Positions 14,022 to 21,659 of a stretch of DNA of 64,000 bases are shown piece after piece. Each line of letters begins with the position of its first letter. The first letter of the stretch is position 1. Position numbers and translations under genes: made by a program. The notes below the pieces were generated by a model, which did no database searches, was not told the DNA's origin, and saw only the letters and a program-made list of their open reading frames with translations. Source of the DNA: Variovorax paradoxus. Its GTDB lineage: Bacteria > Pseudomonadota > Gammaproteobacteria > Burkholderiales > Burkholderiaceae_C. Location: the NCBI RefSeq assembly GCF_018614955.1, contig NZ_JAGGNV010000027.1:62001-126000 (forward strand), written 5' to 3'.

Positions 14022-15017
14022 TTATTGGATCACCTTGTCCGCCCGGTTCAGCACCGAGCGCGGGATGGTGAAGCCGATGCGCTTGGCGGTTTTCAGGTTG
14101 ATCAGCAGCTCGAACTTGGTCGGCTGCTCGATGGGCAGATCGGCCGGCTTGGCGCCCTTCAGGATCCTGTCGACGTAGCGGGCGCCGTCCTTGCCCTCCA
14201 TGCCGTAGCCGGGCCCGTAGGCCATGAGGCATCCGTTTTCCGCGTAGTCGCCCCGTGCGCAGATCGAGGGCAATCCGTTGGCGATGGCCAGTTCGGCGAT
14301 GAGTTTCTGGTTCGAATTGGCGACCGGGTTGAGCGTGACCCAGACGGCGTTGTTGCGCGCCTTGACGGCTTGCGTGAATGCAGCCACGTACTCGTCGACG
14401 CTGCTGGCCTCCATCGAATAGAGCTCCAGGCCCAGCTTCTTTGCGGGCGCCTGGCTTTCTTCCCACTGCGGGATGGAACCCGGCGCCTTGCGATCCCAGA
14501 GCACCGCGACCCGGGTGACCTTGGGCATCATTTCCTTCAGCAGCTCCAGCCTTTTTCCGGCCAGGACCGCCGCCACATTGGTGATCCCCGTACTGTTGCC
14601 GCCTGGCCGCGCCAGGGTTTCGGCCAGGCCGGTGGTGATCGGGTCGGTGACGCCCATGAAGACGATGGGAATGGTGCCGGTCGTCTTCTTGGCCGCCAGG
14701 GCCGCGTTGGTCGTGACCGTGACGAGCACGTCCACCTCCAGCCGGAGCAGTTCGGCCGCGTGGCTCGGGAGCCGCTCCAGATCCAGGCTTTCATGGCGGT
14801 AGTCGATCTGGATGTTCTGCCCTTCGACATAGCCGAGGTCGCGCAGGCCCTGCCGGAATGCCTCCAGCCGGGGCGCGTCCGCGCTGGCCGAGACGGCCGC
14901 CAGATAGCCCACGCGCGGCACTTTCCTCGCCTGCTGGGCCTCGGCCACGGGAGCGGCGGCAAGCATCAGCGCGCAAAGAAGAAGCCGCAGGTTGTTGCCG
15001 TTCATCAGGTTTCTCAT
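14022..15017 (-). CDS. ABC transporter substrate-binding protein (TrpX/PF04392-like)
   Basis: A 331-aa periplasmic binding protein of the family found in Burkholderiales as orphan ABC binding proteins. The signal peptide covers about residues 1-29 (ending VAEAQQ), then KVPRVGYLAAVSASADAPR, the family start, and a C-terminal QPTKFELLINLKTAKRIG, which is diagnostic. No permease or ATPase is adjacent. The start at 15017 puts a signal peptide at the N-terminus; ATG 15005 is also possible, whereas the longest frame (15173) would lack a signal and invade the divergent gene. Ligand unknown. Confidence 0.85.
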   Translation of the reverse strand: MRNLMNGNNLRLLLCALMLAAAPVAEAQQARKVPRVGYLAAVSASADAPRLEAFRQGLRDLGYVEGQNIQIDYRHESLDLERLPSHAAELLRLEVDVLVTVTTNAALAAKKTTGTIPIVFMGVTDPITTGLAETLARPGGNSTGITNVAAVLAGKRLELLKEMMPKVTRVAVLWDRKAPGSIPQWEESQAPAKKLGLELYSMEASSVDEYVAAFTQAVKARNNAVWVTLNPVANSNQKLIAELAIANGLPSICARGDYAENGCLMAYGPGYGMEGKDGARYVDRILKGAKPADLPIEQPTKFELLINLKTAKRIGFTIPRSVLNRADKVIQ

Positions 15018-15134
15018 TCGGAGCTTCCATCTTCCATAGGCTGATTGGTGGATCTCGCCGAGCCCGCAAAGGCGGAAAATCGGCGCCGCGCCGCTGTAGA
15101 TGGCGCAGCCAATCGACGACAAAGTGATCGAATC

Positions 15135-17633
<2,499 letters not shown>

Positions 17634-17691: not shown

Positions 17692-18069
17692 ATGAGCACC
17701 ATCCTGATCGTCGAGGACAACGACAAGAACATGAAGCTGATGCGCGACGTGCTGCAGCACGCCGGCCACGCCACGCTGGAGGCGCGGACCGGCGAGGCGG
17801 GCGTGCAGCTGGCCATCGACCACCCGCCCGACCTGATCCTGATGGACGTGCAGCTGCCGGGCATGAGCGGCATCGCGGCCTTGCAGGAGATTCGCGCGCA
17901 TCCGGTGTTGCAGGCGATCCCCGTCATCGCCGTGTCGGCCTCGGTCATGCCCGACGACCATCGCAGCATCGTGAATTCGGGTTTCGACGCTTTCCTGACC
18001 AAGCCCATCGCCCTGAAGACCCTGCGCGCGACCGTCGATCGCTTCCTGAAACAGAAGGGACCGCGATGA
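17692..18069 (+). CDS. Single-domain response regulator (DivK/CheY-like)
   Basis: A 125-aa stand-alone receiver. The acidic pair E8/D9, phospho-acceptor D52 (LILMDVQLPG), the threonine/serine switch position in IPVIAVSAS and the lysine in FLTKPI are present. No output domain, so it works by protein contact or as a phosphate sink or relay. It lies between the histidine kinase and the receiver-cyclase and overlaps the latter by 4 nt (ATGA), so the products are made from one mRNA and probably act in one phosphorelay. Confidence 0.94.
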   Translation: MSTILIVEDNDKNMKLMRDVLQHAGHATLEARTGEAGVQLAIDHPPDLILMDVQLPGMSGIAALQEIRAHPVLQAIPVIAVSASVMPDDHRSIVNSGFDAFLTKPIALKTLRATVDRFLKQKGPR

Positions 18070-19187
18070 GTGCCCACGTCCTGGTCGTCGACGACGTCGA
18101 AAAGAACGTCAGGCTGCTCGCCGACGTCCTGACCGCGCGCGGCTATCGAACGAGCACCGCGGCATCCGGCGAGGAAGCGCTGGCGCGCATCGCGGCCGAT
18201 ATGCCCGACTTGGTCTTGCTGGACGTGATGATGCCGGGGATGAACGGCTACGACGTGTGCCGCGCGATCCGTGCCGATCCGGCATGCGCGGTGCTGCCGG
18301 TGGTGCTGGTGACCGCGCTGGACCCGGAGCACGAGCGCGTGAAGGGACTGGAGGCGGGCGCGGACGACTTTCTGACCAAGCCCATCCACCAGGCCGAGCT
18401 GATGGCGCGCGTGCGCTCCCTGCTGCGCGTCAAGGCCCTGTACGACGAGGTCCAGCGACAGAGGGCCGAGCTGCAGGCCTGGAACCTGACGCTCGAGCAG
18501 CGCGTGGCCGATGCCGCCCGGCAGCTCGAGCGCATCGGGCAGCTCAAGCGCTTCTTCTCGCCACAGCTGGCCCAGGCGATCCTGGCCGGCGGCGCCGACG
18601 ATCCGCTCAAGAGCCATCGGCGCGAGATCACCGTCGTCTTTCTCGACCTGCGCGGCTTCACCGCCTTCACCGAGACCGCCGACCCCGAGGAGGTGATGGC
18701 CGTGCTGGCCCAATACCACGCGGCGATGGGGCGGCTGGTGCTGGCCCACGAGGGCACGCTGGAGCGCTTTTCCGGCGACGGCATGATGATCTTCTTCAAC
18801 GATCCGGTGCCGGTGCCCGATGCGCCGTTGCGCGCGGTGCGGATGGCGGTCCGGATGCAGGAGGAGATGCGCCATCTCAGCGACCAATGGCGCCGGCGCG
18901 GCTACGACCTGCACATGGGCATCGGCATCGCGCAAGGCTTCGCGACCATCGGCAGCATCGGTTTCGAAGGGCGTATCGACTACGGGGCCATCGGAACCGT
19001 GACCAACCTGTCCGCGCGCCTGTGCGGAGAAGCGGAGGCTGGCGAGATCCTGCTGTCGCAGCGCGTCCAGGCCGCCTTGCAGGAGGCGCGGCCCGAAGGC
19101 GAGTGGTCGATCCAGCAGGCCGGCGAGCTGGCGCTCAAGGGCTTTCAGCGCCAGGTGCCGGTATGGCGCGTGGTGCCGGATTCCTGA
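18066..19187 (+). CDS. Receiver-class III nucleotide cyclase
   Basis: A 373-aa two-domain signal enzyme: receiver at 1-122 (D53 acceptor, K105), a coiled-coil linker at ~123-165, and a class III cyclase domain at ~185-370. The metal aspartates D194 (FLDLRGF) and D238 (SGDGMM) and the transition-state pair N314/R318 (TNLSAR) are present, so catalysis is expected. The base-selecting positions are unusual: the Lys of adenylate cyclases is R234 (LERFSGD), and the Asp/Thr position is G307 (DYGAIG). Neither the adenylate (Lys, Asp/Thr) nor guanylate (Glu, Cys) pattern fits. Presumably phosphorylation of D53 by the upstream kinase tunes synthesis; a Crp-type regulator lies 10 bp beyond, convergent. 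Confidence 0.92.
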   Translation: MSAHVLVVDDVEKNVRLLADVLTARGYRTSTAASGEEALARIAADMPDLVLLDVMMPGMNGYDVCRAIRADPACAVLPVVLVTALDPEHERVKGLEAGADDFLTKPIHQAELMARVRSLLRVKALYDEVQRQRAELQAWNLTLEQRVADAARQLERIGQLKRFFSPQLAQAILAGGADDPLKSHRREITVVFLDLRGFTAFTETADPEEVMAVLAQYHAAMGRLVLAHEGTLERFSGDGMMIFFNDPVPVPDAPLRAVRMAVRMQEEMRHLSDQWRRRGYDLHMGIGIAQGFATIGSIGFEGRIDYGAIGTVTNLSARLCGEAEAGEILLSQRVQAALQEARPEGEWSIQQAGELALKGFQRQVPVWRVVPDS

Positions 19188-19196
19188 GCCGGGCCG

Positions 19197-19841
19197 CTAC
19201 CAAGCGGCCGGCAGCTTGCGCAGGATCACCAGGCGGCCGTCGCGCTGCGTGACATAGCCGCCGGCGGTGAGCTCCTTCATGACCCGGTTCACCATCTCGC
19301 GCGAGGAGCCGATGCGGCCCGCGATGTCCTGCTGCGTCAGCTTGTGGCGCAGCACGCGCTCCTCGCCGGCCGGCTCGGACAGCTCGATCAGCACGCGCAC
19401 CATGCGGCCGTAGACGTCCTGCAGCGCAATGCTGCGAACCTGCTCGGTCAGGCGCCGCACCATGCGGATCAGCTTGCGGGTCAGGTGCACCGCGAAGTCG
19501 GGGTGCTCCGCGAGGAACTGGCGCAGCTCCGAACCCTGGACCACGCGGCAGCTGCACGCCGTGAGCGCCTTGATCGATGCCGAGCGCTTCTCGCCGTCGA
19601 TCGAGAGTTCGCCGAAATACTCGCCGGGACCGTACTCGGCGAGCACCACCTCGCGGCCGTCCTCCGAACTGGCGTAGACCTTCACCCGGCCGCTCAGCAG
19701 GATGTAGAGCGAGTCGGTCGTGTCGCCCTCGTTGATCAGGATCGCCTGGGCGGCGAACGAGCGCGTCGACCCGTGCGGCGCGATGGCATCGAGCAGGGGC
19801 TGCGGCAGGCGGTCATTGGCGTCGTCGGTGGCGGAATTCAT
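19197..19841 (-). CDS. Crp/Fnr-family cyclic-nucleotide-responsive regulator
   Basis: A 214-aa Crp-type protein: cNMP-binding beta-roll at ~20-115 with the phosphate cassette YFGELSIDGEKRSAS (E78, R86, S87 conserved), a C-helix at ~118-146, and a winged HTH at ~160-210. The recognition helix SREMVNR keeps R181, E182 and R186, equivalent to E. coli CRP R180, E181 and R185, which read TGTGA half-sites. A perfect TGTGA-N6-TCACA site lies 78 bp upstream of its start, suggesting autoregulation. The C-helix residues that contact adenine in CRP (T127, S128) align with L131 and T132, so ligand choice may differ. Opposite in orientation to the cyclase genes. Confidence 0.93.
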   Translation of the reverse strand: MNSATDDANDRLPQPLLDAIAPHGSTRSFAAQAILINEGDTTDSLYILLSGRVKVYASSEDGREVVLAEYGPGEYFGELSIDGEKRSASIKALTACSCRVVQGSELRQFLAEHPDFAVHLTRKLIRMVRRLTEQVRSIALQDVYGRMVRVLIELSEPAGEERVLRHKLTQQDIAGRIGSSREMVNRVMKELTAGGYVTQRDGRLVILRKLPAAW

Positions 19842-20009: not shown

Positions 20010-21659
20010 ATGACCTCCCTTTTCCCTCGCTGCCCCCTGCTGATCGCCCATTGCGTCGGCCTGCGCCTGATCGCGCTCGCCCAAGCCAAGGCCGACTCGC
20101 GCCTGGCGGTGTGGGCCTTCATCGTGGTGCTGTTCGGGATGCTGACGGCCTGTGCCGGCTTGCCGAGCGGCGTGCAGCGTCCGAATTCGCAAGCCCGCAT
20201 CGACGTGGCCGACACCCGCCTCGCCGCGGTGGCCGCCGCATCGATGCCGGCAGCCAACGGCCAGCTGTCGGGCATGCGCCTGCTGCCCGCCGGCGACCAG
20301 GCTTTCGAGGCGCGCATCGCGCTGGCCCGTGCCGCCGAGAAGAGCATCGATGCGCAGTACTACCAGATCGCCGACGACCTGTCCGGGCGGCAGTTCCTGC
20401 GCGCGCTGGCCGACGCCGCCGCCCGCGGCGTGCGCGTGCGCCTCCTGGTGGACGACCTGCACGCAGCCGGCCAGGACGCGCTGCTGGCCGGCCTGGCCGC
20501 CCGTCCGAACCTCGAAGTGCGCATGTTCAACCCCTTGGCGGTGCGCGACGGCGGTGTCGCCTCGCGCGTGCTGTTCTCGCTGCACGAGTTCTCGCGCGTC
20601 AACCGGCGCATGCACAACAAGCTGTTGGTCGCCGACAACGTGTTCGCGATCACCGGCGGCCGCAACATCGCCAACGAGTACTTCGGCCGCAGCGAGCCCG
20701 CCAACTTCATCGACATGGACATGTTCGCGGCCGGACCGGTGGTGCGTGAGCTGTCGGTGGTGTTCGACGGCTACTGGAACAGCGAGCATGCCTATCCGAT
20801 CCAGAGCCTCGCGGCAGCGGAGTTCTCGTCGGAAGCCGCCCGGCGCCAGTTCGACGACACCGTGCGTGCAGCCGGCGCCGCCGACCTGACGGTGGCGGCG
20901 CGCGACCCGCTCGGCCAGAGCAGCGTCGGCTCGCAGCTGGCCAATGGGCGCCTCGAACTGCACATCGCCGCCGCCCGCGTGATCGCCGATGCGCCGGCCA
21001 AGGCCGCGCCGGGCGATGCGTCGCTCGCCGATGGCGCCGTCATGAACGGCAAGCTCGAGCTGATGCAGTCGGCGCGTTCCGAAGTGCTCGTCGCCTCGCC
21101 CTACTTCGTTCCGGGCCGGCGCACGCTGGAGATCCTCAAGCAGGCCACCGACAACCGGGTGCGCGTGTCGGTCATCACCAACTCGCTGGCCACGACGGAC
21201 GAGCCGCTGGTGCACTTCGGCTACGCGCGCTACCGCAGCGCCTTGCTGCAGATGGGCGTCTCGCTGTTCGAGCTGATGCCCGGCGCCGAGACGCGGGACA
21301 GCGCCGCCGGCGAACTGCGCGGCTCGCTCGGCCGCCTGCATGCCAAGGTGGCGGTGGTGGACCAGCGCTGGCTCTACATCGGCTCGCTGAACATGGACCG
21401 CCGCTCGGCCCACTCCAACACTGAGATGGGGCTGATCGTCGACAGCCCGGAGCTGGCCGGCCAGGTGGCGAGCCTGCTGCAGGGCGAACGGCTGCCCCGG
21501 AGCTACCAGGTCCGCAGCACCGCCGACCAGCCGGGCCTCCAGTGGGTCGCGCAGGAAGGCGAAGAGAAGGTCGTCTTCGCGCAAGAGCCGAACTCGACCT
21601 GGGGAACGCGGCTGCGCCTGTCGATGCTCTCCATGCTGGTGAACGAAGACCTTCTCTGA
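20010..21659 (+). CDS. Phospholipase D/cardiolipin synthase-like protein
   Basis: A 549-aa protein with two HKD motifs: H202-K204-D209 (HNKLLVADN) and H444-K446-D451 (HAKVAVVDQ), each with the downstream GG/GS-N stretch, so the full two-half active site is present. Residues 32-48 form a hydrophobic segment ending LTAC, a possible lipobox with C48. The family includes cardiolipin synthase C-like phosphatidyltransferases and periplasmic or outer-membrane phospholipases D. Expected action is phospholipid head-group exchange at the envelope. It is alone on its transcript, divergent from the crp-like gene, with the CRP-type site in its promoter. Confidence 0.88.
   Translation: MTSLFPRCPLLIAHCVGLRLIALAQAKADSRLAVWAFIVVLFGMLTACAGLPSGVQRPNSQARIDVADTRLAAVAAASMPAANGQLSGMRLLPAGDQAFEARIALARAAEKSIDAQYYQIADDLSGRQFLRALADAAARGVRVRLLVDDLHAAGQDALLAGLAARPNLEVRMFNPLAVRDGGVASRVLFSLHEFSRVNRRMHNKLLVADNVFAITGGRNIANEYFGRSEPANFIDMDMFAAGPVVRELSVVFDGYWNSEHAYPIQSLAAAEFSSEAARRQFDDTVRAAGAADLTVAARDPLGQSSVGSQLANGRLELHIAAARVIADAPAKAAPGDASLADGAVMNGKLELMQSARSEVLVASPYFVPGRRTLEILKQATDNRVRVSVITNSLATTDEPLVHFGYARYRSALLQMGVSLFELMPGAETRDSAAGELRGSLGRLHAKVAVVDQRWLYIGSLNMDRRSAHSNTEMGLIVDSPELAGQVASLLQGERLPRSYQVRSTADQPGLQWVAQEGEEKVVFAQEPNSTWGTRLRLSMLSMLVNEDLL

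Follow-up and report, generated by a model that had tools for sequence, protein, structure and literature searches.

In class III adenylyl cyclases a lysine contacts N1 of adenine and an aspartate or threonine contacts N6, and in guanylyl cyclases a glutamate is the main determinant of GTP use (accessible part of PMC7384201). Cya2 is a guanylyl cyclase with a Glu-Gly pair at these positions (accessible part of PMC4215837), yet its E488K variant, with the Lys-Gly pair that the sequence of 6fht also shows in our alignment, is described as ATP-specific, turning over the other nucleotide only slightly (accessible part of PMC5995499). Since the same Gly goes with GTP use in the one and with ATP specificity in the other, Gly is neutral and the first position decides; by itself, Gly is ruled out as a sign of a guanylyl cyclase by the variant (PMC5995499, same scope). 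An earlier note on the DNA studied here had defined guanylyl cyclases by Glu and Cys, which is too narrow given that Cya2 carries Gly, and had used the second position to discriminate between the two activities, a use that the two forms of Cya2 contradict.

The protein described here is encoded in a stretch of 64,000 nucleotides of Variovorax paradoxus (the whole of which is called the window below) and carries Arg and Gly at the two base positions. Its relatives constitute a whole class III lineage without the residues on which sequence-based prediction of the product relies. Under the labels adenylate/guanylate cyclase or plain response regulator, the absence of these specificity residues stays hidden.

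The receiver-cyclase and its gene neighbourhood

The gene (18066..19187, forward strand, like all features of the protein given below) translates into a response regulator of 373 residues, in which Pfam places a receiver (Response_reg, residues 5-117) and a cyclase domain (Guanylate_cyc, residues 186-361; 68.7 bits with a cut-off of 21.9). The receiver (18078..18416) contains the residues with the textbook roles, i.e. the acidic pair D9/D10, the phospho-acceptor D53, T83 and K105, and together with the adjoining kinase gene these are the features by which a response regulator is recognized. Between the domains lies a coupling stretch, ..KRFFSPQLAQAIL.. (18537..18593), which aligns with GRYLTDQVV of the Cya2 fusion 6fht, i.e. 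with the cyclase transducer element, of which FGRY is the motif (accessible part of PMC5995499).

The class III domain (residues 181-371, 18606..19178) was delimited by alignment, Pfam and a structure model. In an alignment that is gap-free at the motifs, six key residues face their counterparts in CyaB (3r5g), CyaC (1wc1) and Cya2 (2w01), namely the metal ligands D194 (18645..18647) and D238 (18777..18779), the transition-state pair N314 and R318 (19005..19019), and the base positions R234 (codon CGC, 18765..18767) and G307 (codon GGG, 18984..18986); F192 (18639-18641) lies two residues before the first metal Asp. R234 stands opposite Lys of CyaB and CyaC and Glu of Cya2, and occupies the position of Arg142 in the cytidylate cyclase EaPycC. 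G307, at the Thr/Asp position of adenylyl cyclases, stands opposite Thr of CyaB and CyaC and Gly of Cya2. The fold, the two metal Asp and the Asn-Arg pair are those of a class III nucleotidyl cyclase; R234 and G307 are found instead of the Lys and Asp/Thr of the adenylyl cyclase rule, and R234 instead of the Glu of the guanylyl cyclase rule.

The AlphaFold model of residues 181-371 (mean pLDDT 93, from 39 aligned sequences) has CyaB as its top match among those listed (Z 28.7, rmsd 1.3 over 186 residues), followed there by CyaC and then Cya2. CyaC, with which the earlier note had proposed a structure-based alignment as a check, superposes at Z 27.0, and in the sequence alignment its Lys and Thr face R234 and G307. 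Alignment and superposition thereby bear out the note's residue numbering, the presence of D194, D238, N314 and R318, the placement of R234 and G307 at the Lys/Glu and Asp/Thr sites and the absence from the domain of both a Lys plus Asp/Thr pair and a Glu, and the intact catalytic residues agree with its expectation that the enzyme should work. In the NCBIfam matches listed, no models but those of receivers, kinases and Crp appear for these proteins, each below its own cut-off.

A sensor histidine kinase with a dCache-HAMP-GAF-HisKA-HATPase arrangement (ORF and Pfam, 15045..17633, start codon uncertain), a stand-alone receiver of 125 residues (ORF and Pfam, 17692..18069), which overlaps the cyclase gene by four bases, and the receiver-cyclase follow one another on the forward strand, with the expected Asp in both receivers. 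Divergent from the kinase gene lies a gene for a periplasmic binding protein (14022..15173, reverse strand) of Pfam family PF04392 (ABC_sub_bind), which has only two matches in the whole genome. Among the R/H loci, i.e. those with a related cyclase carrying Arg or His at position 234, homologues of the binding protein occur in the available flank of 17 of the 47 that extend upstream by 5.5 kb or more (19 of all 66), and at none of the 12 loci of other cyclases with as much upstream sequence (0 of all 13). On a Sinorhizobium plasmid (R/A at positions 234/307) and a Microvirga plasmid (R/S) the binding protein, an SCO protein, kinase, receiver and receiver-cyclase lie in a row, and in a more distant Rhizobium relative (N/T) a Cache-HAMP-cyclase adjoins the binding protein. 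The two-component relay probably senses a periplasmic solute. Proximity to a kinase is in itself no special link, kinase-like ORFs being present at 44 of the 47 R/H loci but also at 10 of the 12 others; the corresponding tally of receivers was set aside, as the receiver of the cyclase itself enters into it.

Convergent with the cyclase gene is the gene of a Crp-like regulator (19197..19841, reverse strand), a candidate receptor with a cNMP-binding domain and a C-terminal Crp-type HTH (Pfam). The protein keeps the phosphate-binding motif GEL...RSA; Thr127 of E. coli CRP is replaced by Leu, which counts against cAMP. At the position of E. coli CRP Ser128 it has Thr, and the cAMP determinant is given as Ser/Thr (accessible part of PMC11224242). 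As a fixed partner the Crp-like gene was rejected, as it adjoins the cyclase only in L005/L009 (the window), L010, L039 and L046; in L067 a homologue adjoins the His-type paralogue. The window also has an ORF matching PADLOC models of DrmC, presumably a phospholipase D-like protein, next to the Crp-like gene (20010-21659, forward strand), and in L067 both genes have homologues next to the His-type paralogue.

Up to three ORFs within 3.5 kb downstream of the 66 R/H cyclases (5 unplaceable) were compared, and no receptor is shared among them: the most widely spread cluster, cNMP-binding proteins, is present at 6 loci, and another comprises 8 ORFs from 5 loci. Downstream of an R/G cyclase of Methylomirabilota (L066:7584-9254) a cNMP-binding domain forms the C-terminus of a type II NADH dehydrogenase-like protein, possibly a direct metabolic target of the cyclase product, and near another R/G cyclase (L089:3812-5167) it is fused to a metallo-beta-lactamase (ODP-like) domain. 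Two proteins of similar size (L095:1590-2663 and L099:7527-8600), likewise downstream of R/G cyclases, have one cNMP-binding domain as their sole Pfam match.

By alignment, the genome encodes twelve class III domains, namely the R/G domain of the window, an H/G paralogue, one K/A, three K/D, three Gln and three Asp types; a class I cyclase (PF01295) was not found in this genome. The Gln types (L002, L003, L004) have Gln at the Lys position, and in L003 and L004 the transition-state Asn is missing as well. Given the three K/D cyclases, formation of cAMP would not need the R234 cyclase, a point against ATP as its substrate.

A lineage with arginine or histidine at position 234

The alignment of relatives comprises 104 rows, including the query and the window copies and excluding matches with 120 or fewer aligned residues; position 234 is Arg or His in 86 of these and another residue in 17, one truncated row being unreadable. 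The 79 distinct R/H sequences, a set that is selected by the residue at 234 and leaves the truncated row L112 uncounted, divide into 65 with Arg and 14 with His. At position 307 they have Gly (55), Ala (21), Thr (2) or Val (1), and D194, D238 and R318 are invariant (79/79) and N314 is kept in 78. They span Variovorax and other betaproteobacteria, Rokubacteria, Methylomirabilota, Microvirga, Chloroflexota and others. The best named relatives of the window are Variovorax, with up to 96% identity in the best segment.

A maximum-likelihood tree was computed from 88 chosen cyclase domains. The 41 R/H rows adjacent to the window protein form one group in it (99/96), which joins seven rows, four with Asp, two with Ser and one with Asn at position 234, in a group of 48 (100/99); within this tree sample the group of 48 has neither Lys nor Glu at that position. 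Four sister cyclases (L134, L141, L144, L145), with Asp at the Lys/Glu site, Ala or Val at the second site and Tyr, Ala, Met or Ser at the F192 position, represent a further non-canonical group.

Genome samples give the distribution outside this alignment. Some match at E <= 1e-20 was present in 171 of 321 genomes sampled across the class, and only five matches, from four genomes, scored at least 286 bits, the next score being 182. The phylum-wide sample of 398 genomes contained 31 with matches at E <= 1e-50, 17 of them above 200 bits. The 18 loci that were read have Arg, Lys, His or Ser at 234, and include two ordinary K/T cyclases (L177 and L178, below 190 bits) and two of S/T type (L175 and L176). 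L173 and L174, which belong to two further families of the phylum, have His and Thr with an altered motif, GAGVDHRMGDG.

Arg or His at position 234 is the mark of a lineage and not of a single odd gene, and its lineage-wide occurrence rules out that R234 is a local accident. A literature search returned no characterised member; as most subscription papers were beyond its reach, this is no proof that there is none.

Arginine in place of lysine and the candidate substrates

A genus from another class of the same phylum, probably an alphaproteobacterial one, has orthologues that are about 50% identical to the window protein and have Arg or Lys at 234 and Ala at 307; 54 of its 60 genomes match at E <= 1e-70. 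These orthologues are long proteins with (by eye) an extracellular-type and HAMP-like N-terminal half and are not receiver-cyclases. After removal of rows less than 40% identical to the window protein, 42 rows were read, 38 from the best-scoring loci of this genus and four from other families, and their 234/307 pairs are R/A (26), K/A (10), R/S (4) and H/T (2). The ten Lys rows are nested within the Arg rows, which on the tree takes two changes. L204 and L202, the Arg and Lys rows nearest to each other, share 94% identity in the stretch compared, with 12 differing columns; of the eight catalytic and pocket positions that were followed, only 234 differs. All three bases of the codon differ, Arg being encoded by CGC, CGT or CGG and Lys by AAA. 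Orthologues as close as these are unlikely to differ in product, so Arg probably does the work of Lys.

Taking this exchange together with the catalytic residues kept throughout the R/H set (both Asp and the Arg in all, the Asn in all but one), we favour ATP with some reservation: as judged from sequence, the window protein is probably a kinase-controlled adenylyl cyclase in which Arg234 does the work of Lys. The ATP specificity of Cya2 E488K, the nearest folds (CyaB, CyaC and Cya2), the gene order and the Thr of the Crp-like protein at the Ser128 site also speak for this reading. The kinase, with its periplasmic Cache domain and probably informed by the PF04392 binding protein, would phosphorylate D53 of the receiver, and the dimeric class III domain would then be switched via the coupling stretch. 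Arg234 would replace Lys as the hydrogen-bond donor to N1 of adenine, and with Gly307 offering no side chain, N6 would be held by the backbone or by water, which must also be the case for Cya2 E488K. The resulting cAMP could act through the Crp-like protein. Against ATP it counts that the Arg-Lys exchange was seen in those Cache-HAMP-type cyclases with Ala307 and not in receiver-cyclases, and that 14 of the 79 relatives have His and the sister cyclases Asp, Ser or Asn, from which it follows that position 234 drifts in the wider lineage. R234, to which the earlier note had drawn attention, is unusual, but its interchange with Lys between near-identical orthologues points to ATP.

That note had also held that homology alone does not fix the product and had asked about other nucleotides, legitimately so, as EaPycC has Arg at the same position. 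An Arg that fits N1 of adenine should fit N3 of cytosine with the same geometry, cytosine presenting the same acceptor-donor edge, and CTP is the main rival to ATP: Arg234 would read N3/O2 of cytosine as Arg142 of EaPycC may, and cCMP would serve in ordinary two-component signalling, not in phage defence. In EaPycC the specificity residues F100, R142 and Q144 lie beside the metal ligands D102 and D146 (accessible part of PMC11224242). In the alignment of a PycC-like protein to 8jsf, R142 occupies D-4, the place of R234, and F100 occupies D-2, the place of F192, and two further PycC-like proteins have Arg at the R234 position. However, the Phe is commonplace, occurring in 16 of 17 non-R/H rows too, the position of Q144 is S236 in the window protein and Thr, Ser or Ala in the 79 R/H sequences, and EaPycC has Ser and Lys in place of the Asn-Arg pair that the window protein keeps. 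Since the three PycC rows are far off in the tree (branch 100/98), the Arg probably arose separately in PycC, and the two Arg residues are probably best seen as convergent. With Lys also substituting for Arg in close orthologues, we regard a cytidylyl cyclase as unlikely. Marginally less unlikely, though still doubtful, is a cyclase of relaxed specificity that accepts at least two nucleotides, one base contact being altered and the other missing; the variability of position 234 (Arg, His, Lys, Asn, Ser, Asp) across the wider lineage and the absence of a side-chain contact from G307 would suit it, but Cya2 E488K remains specific with its Lys-Gly pair (accessible part of PMC5995499), and the 41 R/H rows, as one group (99/96), show that a basic residue was kept over a long divergence.

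For GTP speak the Gly shared with Cya2, which is among the closest solved relatives and 36% identical in the structural alignment, yet position 234 lacks the Glu that is the main GTP determinant (accessible part of PMC7384201) and the three Glu-type rows, Cya2 included, form a branch of their own (99/95), which makes a guanylyl cyclase very improbable. A catalytically dead domain serving as a phosphorylation-controlled binding module would account for the unusual base-contact pair, but it is hard to reconcile with the near-complete retention of both metal Asp, the Asn and the Arg among the R/H sequences, and we give it hardly any credence. A bolder version of the CTP reading, rated slightly lower than that reading itself, is that the whole Arg/His lineage consists of two-component-controlled cytidylyl (or mixed) cyclases and that the Lys orthologues are reversions to ATP; if true, cCMP would gain a signalling role outside phage defence. 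The near-identical Arg and Lys enzymes are a natural pair for asking whether Arg reads adenine or cytosine, and such a pair bears both on the product of the lineage and on cCMP signalling outside Pycsar.

Comparison with known cyclases

The resemblance to Pycsar clade E is partial. R234 matches the clade's Arg four positions ahead of the second metal Asp (D-4); at D-2, the Gln of the clade is S236 in the window protein and Met in the PycC-like proteins L120 and L121, so that Gln may not define the clade, and in the tree the window protein does not group with EaPycC (100/98 branch). PycC-like proteins were found in two of the 398 genomes of the phylum search. A Pycsar identity based on the PADLOC PycC models (at most 68.9 bits) was rejected, as the match covers the class III domain that both have in common and the protein falls elsewhere in the tree. 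PycC chains do not appear among the 50 structural matches listed, which is not evidence of a difference. In a scan of six window proteins no PycTM or PycTIR effector was found; the single match to a PycTIR model is that of the Crp-like protein, over its cNMP domain (15-136). EaPycC (8jsf) itself shares with the window protein the Arg at the 234 position and the Phe two residues before the first metal Asp, and differs in having Gln, Thr, Ser and Lys where the window protein has Ser, Gly, Asn and Arg, and in its remote place in the tree.

CyaB, the adenylyl cyclase of Pseudomonas aeruginosa, is, among solved structures, the nearest in sequence (119 bits) as well as in fold and has the same metal and Asn-Arg residues, but for base contact it has Lys and Thr in place of the Arg and Gly of the window protein. 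CyaC, the Spirulina adenylyl cyclase, likewise has a class III domain, but again with Lys and Thr; it carries receivers as well. The Synechocystis guanylyl cyclase Cya2 and its E488K variant (6fht/PaaC) have in common with the window protein the Gly at the second base position, the catalytic residues and the aligned coupling stretch, and differ from it in Glu (wild type) or Lys (variant) versus Arg and in the input, which is CHASE2 or phytochrome in Cya2/PaaC and a receiver here (accessible part of PMC5995499). Finally, in the accessible descriptions of the R. centenum gcyB-gcyC-cgrA cGMP system and of Xanthomonas XC_0250 the cyclase gene is linked to a Crp-like or cNMP-binding partner, as it is in the window; XC_0250 is described there with Leu and Ala instead of the Asn-Arg pair, which the window protein keeps.
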